From NCBI GenBank assembly GCA_021154285.1, contig JAJKIV010000178.1, positions 1 to 32,219 on the forward strand: a DNA stretch of 32,219 nucleotides, read 5' to 3'. Position 1 is the stretch's first letter. Every line of letters begins with the position of its first letter. Positions 4,401 through 7,000 of the stretch are shown here, one piece after another. Source of the stretch: Gemmatimonas sp. (lineage in GTDB: Bacteria > Gemmatimonadota > Gemmatimonadetes > Gemmatimonadales > Gemmatimonadaceae). The notes under the pieces are model-generated. The model did not search any database and was not told the DNA's origin. It worked only from the letters and a program-made list of their open reading frames with translations. The position numbers and the translations under genes were made by a program.

Positions 4401-4469
4401 GGCCTTGTCGAACTGTTTCTTCTGCTCCAGTTCGATGGCTTTCTTCTTCAGCTTCGCTGCGTTCGACAT
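1401..4469 (-). CDS. Tetratricopeptide repeat protein with long low-complexity acidic/Pro-Ala central region
   Basis: 1022-aa ORF; TPR-like repeats at N-terminus (DDADISVYNRVGDLMLRTGSSSDALAYFEKAVDLYAERG) and C-terminus (HYDLGVAYKEMGLIDEAVAEFQKAL), separated by about 400 aa of D/E/A/P-rich sequence. Confidence 0.85.
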   Translation of the reverse strand: MSNAAKLKKKAIELEQKKQFDKAVAAYVQFLQESEGSLDDADISVYNRVGDLMLRTGSSSDALAYFEKAVDLYAERGFHNNAIALCNRVLRQAPGRASIYYKLGKISATKGFKSDAKKNFLEYADRMQKTGQIDEAFRALKEFADLCPDQDDIRLMLAEQLTKENRQDEALEQLQKLHDKLDSEGRMAEARATVDRMKSIDPEAVPRKSGAYRTQKSSDLIFLDTSYEDTARPAKPAPTPARSAPTAPAPAAAAPAPPRVATPPGRQVSDPDLVLLTLEDQADTPMKGQEVALADPLELAAPNDESSVAIPLLDIGHELPSADEIGGFDVDAMAMTGQLASSEPVDFAVAAEPAAAIASHDVAALDLSEPADEVAVPDPEPAHAELTVETPAYVAGPSLAVDYGDLAADFTAPMEPDGGDFFDFRSPPRSDGDAMDAVPLLSLDNDVSFPSFDLRDMSLPSADDVTSGGDLASALGVDASLNGGLDVLDLDAVGGSTKDLMFGEPEPGGSLGLAPSGRDDRLDFDLHGAESLAAGVDESVSSTIAASIDDMLLAGPSTPGVDDVDAATTPPVAEPETVAASVADAASRADGPIDVPIDDLIEAPAPVEQAPTSVVGTAILPLHAADSEVATTASVEPRQAPPAAHEPPAEHRAEWEIQRAEAERMLEAGDRPNGVQKLEQVAAELERIGDLERALTIIDELIRLTPDSTRHHQKRVELAFRSNDRAKLIDAYLELGDALFRSGEERKARAVYQRVLELAPEDARAQAAVESVSSMSPPQGSGAIAAIPAAAHMSEVRAPAVPATPARDSHRAPLPTPSNAARASNGTAAPAQPYKPAPLDRSAATNGDFIDLGDWLREDESPKSTRMVADEKPPTGDEEADFQEMLKRFKQGVADNVDEEDFESHYDLGVAYKEMGLIDEAVAEFQKALRGQTNRVRAYEALGQCFVEKDQFQVAASVLSRAIAIGDGDDHHLVGVLYLLGRATEALSRNRDALDYYQRVFAVDIEFRDVADRIRAIERKAT

Positions 4470-5908
4470 CAGCGCGTGGAAGTCATTCGGTCAATGCCTT
4501 GCGCGAGGGCGCGCCCCTGATGGTACGGGACGATATCGCGGCTCGATGGATGACAGAGTCGCCCTCGCACCCACGTGGCAGCGCATCGGTTGTCGCCGTA
4601 CCAGTAGGGCAGCTCACGGACATCGTCGGCAGCGAACAGCGCGAGATCGGCGGAAAAGTCCGGCGCGATCTGGCCCACCTCATCCGCGAGTGACAACGCG
4701 GCCGCGCCATTCACCGTCGACGCGACGACCGATTCCGCAACGCTCATCCGAAGCTGACTGACGCCGAGGGTCATGACGAGCGGGAAGTTCGTCGTCGGCG
4801 ACGTGCCGGGATTGAAGTCGGTGGCCAACGCCACGGCGGCGCCGGCGTCGACGAGCGCGCGGGCGGGCGCCTGCTTTTCCTTTCCGAGGAAGAGCATCGT
4901 TCCGGGAAGCAGCGTGGCAACTGTAGTGGATGCGGCGAGCACGCGGATTCCCGTTTCGGAGATGGCTGCGAGGTGGTCGGCTGACGTGGCCCCGATCTCC
5001 GCGGCGAGCTCGGCTCCGCCTGACGCCCGAAGCTCGTCGGCGTGGAGTTTGAGCCCCAACCCGGCGGACCGTGCGGCAGTGAGAATCGTTCTCGACTCGT
5101 CGATCGTGAACACACCCGGTTCGCAGAACACGTCCGCGAAACGGGCAAGCCCCGCCGACGAAACGGCGGGGAGCATCGTAGAGACGAGCAAGCGAACGTA
5201 TTCGGAACGTCCGTCCCGTATCTCGCGGAATTCGAGGGGGATTTCGTGTGCGCCAAGCCACGTTGGAACCAGGCGCATGGGGAGAATCTCACCAAGCCTG
5301 CGGATCACGCGGAGCGATTTCAGCTCGTCGTCGGGAGTGAGGCCGTAGCCGGACTTTACCTCGACGGTCGTGACGCCGTGGGCCGCGAGGCGCCTCAGGC
5401 GAGGAATTGCAAGGTCGAGCAGGTCGTCTTCCGACCGGCCGCGAAGGTCGCGCACGGACGAATGGATCCCTCCCCCGCGCCGAGCGATCTCCATGTAATC
5501 GAGGCCTGACGCTCGGAGCTCCTGCTCCTCGTACCGTGGCTTGCCGAAGATCGCGTGGGTGTGCGAGTCGACGAGGCCCGGGGTCAGCACGCCCCGCTGG
5601 CAATCGATCCGGGTTGCGTGCGGATATCGGCGATCCAGCTCGGCTTGCGGCCCGATCTCGACGATCCGCTCGCCGTCTACCGCGACGGCGACGCCGGTCA
5701 CAATGCCGGCGTCATTCATCTCACGCCCGCGTCGGGCCCTCGGCGGACCAGCGCACGTCACCACCTGAGAGGCGTTGATGAACAGTAGACGGGAGACGGG
5801 AGACGGGAGGCGGGAGACGCCAACCCCGGAGACGTCCCCCTCGGGGAGAGACGCATCCCGACGGCTTTCCGTCTCCCGTCTCCCGTCTCCCGTCTCCCGC
5901 CCTGTCAC
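4469..5908 (-). CDS. hutI: Imidazolonepropionase
   Basis: GVLTPGLVDSHTHAIFG metal-binding motif, LKLHADEL, ATDFNPGTSPTTNFPLVMTL. The N-terminal about 40 codons are encoded by an inverted heptamer repeat, so the true start is uncertain. Confidence 0.93.
   Translation of the reverse strand: MTGRETGDGRRETESRRDASLPEGDVSGVGVSRLPSPVSRLLFINASQVVTCAGPPRARRGREMNDAGIVTGVAVAVDGERIVEIGPQAELDRRYPHATRIDCQRGVLTPGLVDSHTHAIFGKPRYEEQELRASGLDYMEIARRGGGIHSSVRDLRGRSEDDLLDLAIPRLRRLAAHGVTTVEVKSGYGLTPDDELKSLRVIRRLGEILPMRLVPTWLGAHEIPLEFREIRDGRSEYVRLLVSTMLPAVSSAGLARFADVFCEPGVFTIDESRTILTAARSAGLGLKLHADELRASGGAELAAEIGATSADHLAAISETGIRVLAASTTVATLLPGTMLFLGKEKQAPARALVDAGAAVALATDFNPGTSPTTNFPLVMTLGVSQLRMSVAESVVASTVNGAAALSLADEVGQIAPDFSADLALFAADDVRELPYWYGDNRCAATWVRGRLCHPSSRDIVPYHQGRALAQGIDRMTSTR
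5788..5901. repeat. Heptamer-based inverted repeat element A (GGGAGAC type)
   Basis: Left arm 5788-5819 GACGGGAGACGGGAGACGGGAGGCGGGAGACG and right arm 5870-5901 are reverse complementary at 30 of 32 positions by hand alignment, with a 50-nt spacer. Confidence 0.95.
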
Positions 5909-6876
5909 GCCATCACATCCCTAACGCGAGACAGCTGCAGCGGCGCCTGCGCCTCACCGCGGCAGGCGTAATAGCAGGCGTTGCAGTCGATCGGTTTGTA
6001 GTCGCGGAACTCCGTCCAGTGAAAGTCAACCGGGAAGTCCGGGCACCGTTTTACGTGTCCCGTCGGATCGATGTGAATGGTACGGAGCCCCGCCTGACAC
6101 GGCTCCTTCATCTCGCCGCGCACATAACGCGGAATCTGCTCGATGTAGTAGTCCGAGTTCGTGATGACGCCGCGTTTGCGCCGCTTGAACGCCAGCAGGT
6201 CGGCCACCACTTGATCGATCGCCGAGAGCTGTTCGTCGCGGACGAGATGGTCCTTGTTGCCGTTCTTCGAGTCCGTGTACACGCTGTAATTCACGCCGCA
6301 GCCCAGCTCCGCGGCGCGATGCGCTATCGGCAGGATCTGATCGAGGTTGTCGTCTTTGATCACCGAGTTGAATCGGATGGAATCGATCCCACGCTCGCGC
6401 ATGATCGCGGCGTTCCGGAAGATCTTCGCCGTCAACCCGGGGATGCCGCGCGCCGTGTCGTGTCGGCCATCGAGGTAATCGAGCGAGATGTTGAACTGAT
6501 TGATGCCGGCTTGCCAGAGCGACCAGGCGCGATCGGGAGTCAACATCCCGCCGTGCGTGATCATGGCGATGTACTTGATCCGAATCGCCTGGCTGACGGC
6601 GGCGACGATGTCCTCGAGGTCGCGCCGAAGCGTCGGCTCGCCGCCGGTGAACGTCACCATCATTGGGTTGAAGAACCGCGCCGCGTCGGCAAAGCTCTTC
6701 AACTCGTGGTCCTTCGCCTCGGCAGGAGTCTTCCAGTAATCGCAGAAGCCGCAGCGCGCGTTGCAGCGCATCGTGACTTCGAAGTGGACGAGCACCGGGC
6801 GACGGCGCGCGGTCAGCCACGCATACTTCGCGAGGAACAGCGGAACGTGATAGGGCTTGAACCGAGCCGAAAGCAT
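5905..6876 (-). CDS. Radical SAM protein with C-terminal Cys cluster (SPASM/twitch-like)
   Basis: CNARCGFCDYW (CxxxCxxC), TFTGGEPTLRRDL; C-terminal EPCQAG...KRCPDFP...CNACYYACRG cysteines. Start chosen at ATG 6876 (MLSARFKPYHVPLFLAK); the ORF is open upstream into repeat sequence. Confidence 0.9.
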   Translation of the reverse strand: MLSARFKPYHVPLFLAKYAWLTARRRPVLVHFEVTMRCNARCGFCDYWKTPAEAKDHELKSFADAARFFNPMMVTFTGGEPTLRRDLEDIVAAVSQAIRIKYIAMITHGGMLTPDRAWSLWQAGINQFNISLDYLDGRHDTARGIPGLTAKIFRNAAIMRERGIDSIRFNSVIKDDNLDQILPIAHRAAELGCGVNYSVYTDSKNGNKDHLVRDEQLSAIDQVVADLLAFKRRKRGVITNSDYYIEQIPRYVRGEMKEPCQAGLRTIHIDPTGHVKRCPDFPVDFHWTEFRDYKPIDCNACYYACRGEAQAPLQLSRVRDVMA

Positions 6877-6884
6877 GTCAGTGC

Positions 6885-7000
6885 GGGAACAGGGAACCGA
6901 ATTGGGAACTGGGAACTGACGACGGGCCACCATGCCCGATGGGCCCGACAAGGCTCACGTCATAATCCGTTCCCTGTGCCCTGTTGCCCGTTCCCTGCCC
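6885..7000. repeat. Heptamer-based inverted repeat element B (GGGAACN type)
   Basis: Left arm 6885-6917 GGGAACAGGGAACCGAATTGGGAACTGGGAACT; right arm 6968-7000, reverse complement GGGCAGGGAACGGGCAACAGGGCACAGGGAACG. Imperfectly complementary; inner CGGGCC/GGCCCG stem at 6923-6928/6942-6947. Confidence 0.85.

Follow-up and report, generated by a model that had tools for sequence, protein, structure and literature searches.

The stretch of DNA analysed here, which we call the window, covers 32,219 nucleotides of a Gemmatimonas sp. contig (JAJKIV010000178.1, assembly GCA_021154285.1). Its minus strand carries hutH, hutU, a gene for a radical SAM protein (radSAM) and hutI, in that order, with names assigned by reading the translations. 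The radSAM frame spans 5905-6951 (-), with a likely start at 6876, and the gene is conserved beside hutI in Gemmatimonadota. The hutI frame (imidazolonepropionase, 479 aa) spans 4469-5908 (-), and the two meet in a GTGA (5905-5908, -), where the radSAM stop TGA (5907-5905) would overlap a probable hutI start GTG, as suggested by the open frame and by the ATGA/GTGA junctions of relatives. Between these two histidine-breakdown genes lies a palindrome of about 113 bases (5787-5901) that essentially makes up the first 40 codons of the hutI frame and is predicted by folding to form a long hairpin, of about 45 bp, on both strands.

Tandem Repeats Finder resolved both arms of the palindrome. Arm 1 (5787-5819, G-rich strand +; period 7, 4.7 copies, 92% matches) is (GGGAGAC)4, with units at 5791-5797, 5798-5804, 5805-5811 (here GGGAGGC) and 5812-5818, and stops just short of the conserved LLFINA start of HutI. 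Arm 2 (5869-5899, -; period 7, 4.4 copies, 100% matches) is (GGGAGAC)4 on the opposite strand, with units at 5898-5892, 5891-5885, 5884-5878 and 5877-5871. The arms are complementary at all 28 unit positions, one of them by a wobble pair, and enclose a spacer of about 50 nt (5820-5868). The first-pass annotation had described this layout of about four tandem units, a 50-nt spacer and about four inverted, near-perfectly complementary units correctly, but arm 2 begins 5-7 nt past the radSAM stop codon and not 3 nt. It had also proposed a very long hairpin in the operon mRNA, and RNA folding agrees: the segment 5770-5910(-), in the direction of the operon, folds at -102.6 kcal/mol, compared with -65.5 +/- 4.1 for dinucleotide shuffles (z -9.1), and z is -7.8 when the stretch is folded as DNA. 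Searching Rfam 15 gave no match at the gathering score, the below-threshold miRNA matches being those of any long hairpin, and a terminator scan of the window gave no match; this copy has no U-tract.

We then compared the junction with those of relatives. The relatives of HutI come nearly all from Gemmatimonadota (top identity 74%), and in 56 of the 80 relative loci radSAM is the direct neighbour of hutI. The radSAM stop and HutI's conserved LLF are 116 nt apart in the window, against a median of 26 nt in those 56 relatives, whose junctions lack the window element as such. By this measure the element is an addition of about 90 bases. Its position at the junction had been given correctly; the junction is, however, not cleanly intergenic, as the hutI frame is open from the GTG overlapping the radSAM stop across both arms (MTGRETGDGRRETESRRDASLPEGDVSGVGVSRLPSPVSR, then LLFINASQVV). 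The element could thus be read as an in-frame N-terminal extension of HutI. Many relatives use an ATGA or GTGA overlap and have a short in-frame extension, and the junction gap of 31 of the 56 would allow an overlapping in-frame hutI start. However, the extension is not conserved among relatives, further copies of the element lie at non-coding loci, and the open frame is weak evidence of coding because all six frames of the GGG heptads in use are free of stop codons. We consider such an extension rather improbable; it concerns the local effect of the element and not its origin, and is compatible with the reading that we prefer below.

To place the element in its genome we used the 5.69-Mb assembly (488 contigs, 78% complete). 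Statistics come from an 863-kb sample, not selected for repeats except for the window, and from pattern searches; genes were called with a simple codon-usage caller made for this analysis, so starts may be misplaced. The pattern GGGAGACGGGAGAC (GGGAGAC-GGGAGAC) has 47 matches in the genome against 2 for its reversed-pattern control, bearing out the proposal of a dispersed palindromic family of tandem and inverted heptamers. The contrary outcome named in the first-pass annotation, arrays that occur nowhere else in this genome and are preserved because they encode protein, is not what we found. Exact period-7 tandem repeats number 61 in the sample, where a second-order Markov model predicts 11, and period 7 is the standout excess over chance among the tandem repeats of this genome. 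The G-tract words counted in the sample included GGGCGAC (16), GGGAATC (10), GGGAACT (5) and GGGAGAC (3). Arrays of GGG heptads are intergenic in 32 of 39 cases, while intergenic DNA makes up 11% of the sequence by our caller.

These arrays are also oriented. The G strand points away from the nearest gene in 25 of 29 arrays of the window genome (17 versus 4 at stops, 8 versus 0 at starts), and likewise in the relatives G026 (18/22), G002 (7/9) and G016 (29/32), the G026 and G016 stretches having been picked around known arrays. Since the orientation holds at both gene ends, the rule is one of DNA, with inverted arrays bracketing intergenic spaces. Outside the core family described below, arrays are found beside both starts and stops, and this speaks against a role at 3' ends alone. 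The word itself differs from genus to genus: G002 and G005 are rich in GGGAATC, G026 in GGGAGAC, G016 in GGGACTC and G052 in GGGATGC/GGGGCTC. In many other genera the heptad pattern is absent. Several contigs end within heptad arrays (L109 and the G002 contigs C142 and C173 at their starts, L028 at its end). As these short-read assemblies break at arrays, copy numbers are underestimates. An assembly artefact is unlikely, as the family is genome-wide and is found in near-complete relatives; G016 consists of 4 contigs and is rated 100% complete.

The organizational unit is the convergent inverted pair. In the window genome, 17 of 35 arrays have the inverted word within 250 nt downstream of the G strand and one has it upstream; of the 50 GGGACTC arrays of G016, 47 are matched by an inverted array no more than 300 nt downstream, and again one by an array upstream. 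One G016 hairpin is present in 11 copies, on two contigs and in both orientations, with at most two mismatches in its 25-nt loop region. This recurrence of hairpins with a common loop in both orientations suggests that whole hairpins are copied as units.

The window genome points the same way through a shared core. The core hairpin AACCCTCGGGATGC..GCATCCCGAGGGTT is common to about 32 fetched loci, usually within inverted heptad arms, which may be of the GGGAGAC, GGGCGAC, TGGCGAC, GGGAATC or TGGTTAC/TGGTAAT type. The core search matched the window at 5798-5891 (E 5e-13), and the spacer, at 5821-5867, is a decayed member of this family. The hairpin copies have a median fold z of -7.7, compared with -1.0 for other intergenic DNA. 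Arm type agrees within a copy (summed score 594, against a mean of 398 and a maximum of 542 in 20,000 permutations). Copy-specific mirroring of unit variants had been suspected in L236, L237 and L248 and was rejected (p 0.40 and 0.60 in the two testable classes); when copies of one arm class are compared, the arms of a copy resemble each other no more closely than they resemble those of other copies. In several copies (L009, L011, L017, L021, L234) an extra degenerate tract, GGCTGGTTGCTGGCTGCTCGTGCTGGCTGCTGGCTGAC, lies between the GGGAGAC arm and the core, and at L143, L156 and L212 a different dispersed repeat, similar to GTGTCATTCCGAGCGAGCGGCGAGGAAT, comes after the GGGCGAC arms.

Taken together, we favour the reading, to which we give a probability of a little under 0.6, that the palindrome represents a non-coding, dispersed hairpin element, armed on either side with an inverted array of some four heptamers, and that this element is copied as a hairpin. 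The hairpin would be the copied form, by way of single-stranded or cruciform DNA, an enzyme may propagate it through such a hairpin intermediate, and the copy would insert into small spaces between genes. Slippage by 7 nt would afterwards alter the length and sequence of the arms. Counting against this reading, we found no mobilizing enzyme and saw no target-site duplication. More tentatively, heptamer repeats at large may be the arms of widespread mobile hairpins and not simple slippage microsatellites, copied whole by a non-RAYT enzyme, with a new word in each genus and complementarity kept.

The core copies could instead be selected intrinsic terminators or stabilizers of mRNA 3' ends, in which the arms merely lengthen the stem and which, in the hut operon, separate the expression of radSAM from that of hutI. 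Placement fits this well. Thirteen core copies lie between convergent genes, 11 between tandem genes and none between divergent genes, against a background of 29:146:78 for intergenic regions of 100-600 nt, and nearly all lie 30-60 nt past a stop codon. Core pairing is conserved. In genus G014 (L264-L270) the core, as CCCTCGGGANGC..GCNTCCCGAGGG, is framed by long inverted arms of another kind (CGGCACGGAGACGGCG / CGCCGTCTCCGTGCCG), and most of these copies separate convergent genes. However, a U-tract is missing from most core copies; the window copy, which has neither U-tract nor terminator match, sits within an operon and an open frame; and the coreless pairs of G016 are as frequent at gene starts as at stops (15 versus 14). 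Terminator-like placement holds for the core family only. As a full account we think this improbable; it is partly compatible with the dispersed hairpin element, whose shared-core copies past stop codons probably serve as 3'-end hairpins, in termination or in protection from 3' exonucleases.

Local mutation, with neither mobility nor function, is somewhat less likely still. Polymerase slippage by 7 nt would build the arrays, which small hairpins would then cause to be copied in inverted form by template switching. Gene edges would simply be the places where insertions are tolerated, the more so as most heptads have no stop codon in any frame. In favour, period 7 dominates, words vary by genus and drift within arrays, and variation in repeat number has been reported in Xanthomonas (PMC4692102). 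The same hut junctions hold unrelated inverted 7-periodic pairs in other genomes: between radSAM and hutI in L035, where the order is reversed (C-to-G), L041 and L043, and between hutU and radSAM in L041 and L071. Slippage and template switching, however, do not account for loops that recur unchanged, in either orientation, at loci that are not linked, nor for one core at about 32 loci, both of which need the copying of whole hairpins; the strictly convergent orientation and the minimum of four units in every G016 arm counted also argue against it.

That four G-tracts per arm form a G-quadruplex (G4), in DNA or RNA, and so tune expression near gene ends is very doubtful even though the mode is four GGG tracts per arm in the window genome and in G026, G016 arms have four or more, and closely related heptameric oligonucleotides form G4 in vitro (PMC4692102), because a good many arms fall short of four tracts, with two or three, a fully complementary partner arm would compete, and the TGGTTAC-type arms, which rule out the G-quadruplex as common denominator, surround the same core in the same architecture without GGG and keep the 7-nt period (lag-7 identity 0.53 versus 0.56). 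The clean hairpins of G016, with their minimum of 4+4 heptads and shared loops, and the single core of the window genome with its several arm types, some of which cannot form three-tetrad quadruplexes, make the hairpin, G4 and slippage models separable. Gemmatimonadota thereby make the cause of abundant intergenic heptamers testable.

Among known repeats, the closest are the G-rich heptamers of Rehm et al. (2015), GGGAATC in Xanthomonas and GGGGA(C/T)T (GGGGAYT) in Nostoc, which are intergenic and favour four units, lie on the sense strand after stops and on the antisense strand before starts, and are few between divergent genes (PMC4692102). About 70 convergent pairs were found in one genome, and their function was not explained (PMC4692102). 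The tandem-plus-inverted heptamer architecture is therefore a known one, a correction to the first-pass annotation. The present repeats share with those the 7-nt unit with a G-tract, dispersed tandem arrays with an intergenic excess, the outward G strand, the preference for four units and the convergent inverted pairs. They differ in phylum and in unit (GGGAGAC, which matches neither GGGNATC nor GGGGAYT, although GGGAATC occurs elsewhere in the window genome). In addition, several units coexist in one genome, pairs abound, hairpins that have a loop or core in common are dispersed whole, and the architecture also includes arms that have no GGG (compare PMC4692102). The window feature thus belongs to the broader kind of G-rich heptameric intergenic repeats and not to the Xanthomonas/Nostoc family itself. 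What is new here is the phylum, the genus-specific words, the evidence of pair copying and the GGG-less arms; searching the open-access literature, we found no report of these repeats in Gemmatimonadota. The SPADE survey, in the part available to us, gives heptamers as the most abundant intergenic tandem repeats in prokaryotes, without explanation, and describes there neither Gemmatimonadota nor a paired hairpin as the unit (PMC6344855).

REP, BIME and REPIN elements are also dispersed intergenic palindromes, with inverted dimers of about 100 nt, mostly between tandem or convergent genes, and possible RNA hairpins (PMC3733652). They differ from the window-type elements, whose arms are heptad arrays and which have no conserved GTAG/CGTC tag; a GTAG adjoins the core in about 8 of the 32 copies but not in the window copy. 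A RAYT/REP origin was rejected, as there is no constant tag and the presence of Y1_Tnp does not track the arrays: the window genome has two Y1 (RAYT) transposases, and none of the RAYT type was found in the array-rich G016, G026, G002 and G005. The earlier statement that the element is not an IS element, CRISPR or classic REP is upheld: it is neither of the first two, and it does not behave like RAYT-linked REPs. With MITEs the element shares its short non-coding form, many copies and long terminal inverted repeats; unlike in MITEs, these repeats are tandem arrays, the element has no known partner transposase, and inspection by eye of the G016 elements displayed showed no target-site duplication.

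In the hut operon, the dispersed hairpin element would have landed between radSAM and hutI and displaced the original start region of HutI. It may now either give HutI about 38 more residues or reduce its translation, and the transcribed copy would act passively on the operon, as a long stem in the RNA. The hutU-radSAM junction holds a second heptad pair, decayed and of GGGAAC type (6885-7000). One arm (6885-6918, +) reads GGGAACA GGGAACC .. GGGAACT GGGAACT; the opposite arm, GGGCAGGGAACGGGCAACAGGGCACAGGGAACGG (6967-7000, -), encodes an extra C-terminal tail of HutU, about 18 residues beyond those of relatives. Such repeats appear to rewrite protein ends in this operon, the N-terminus of HutI and the C-terminus of HutU. 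At the hutU-radSAM junction of L047, a telomere-like heptad array, CCCTAAACCCTACACCCTAAACCCTA, lies upstream of radSAM.
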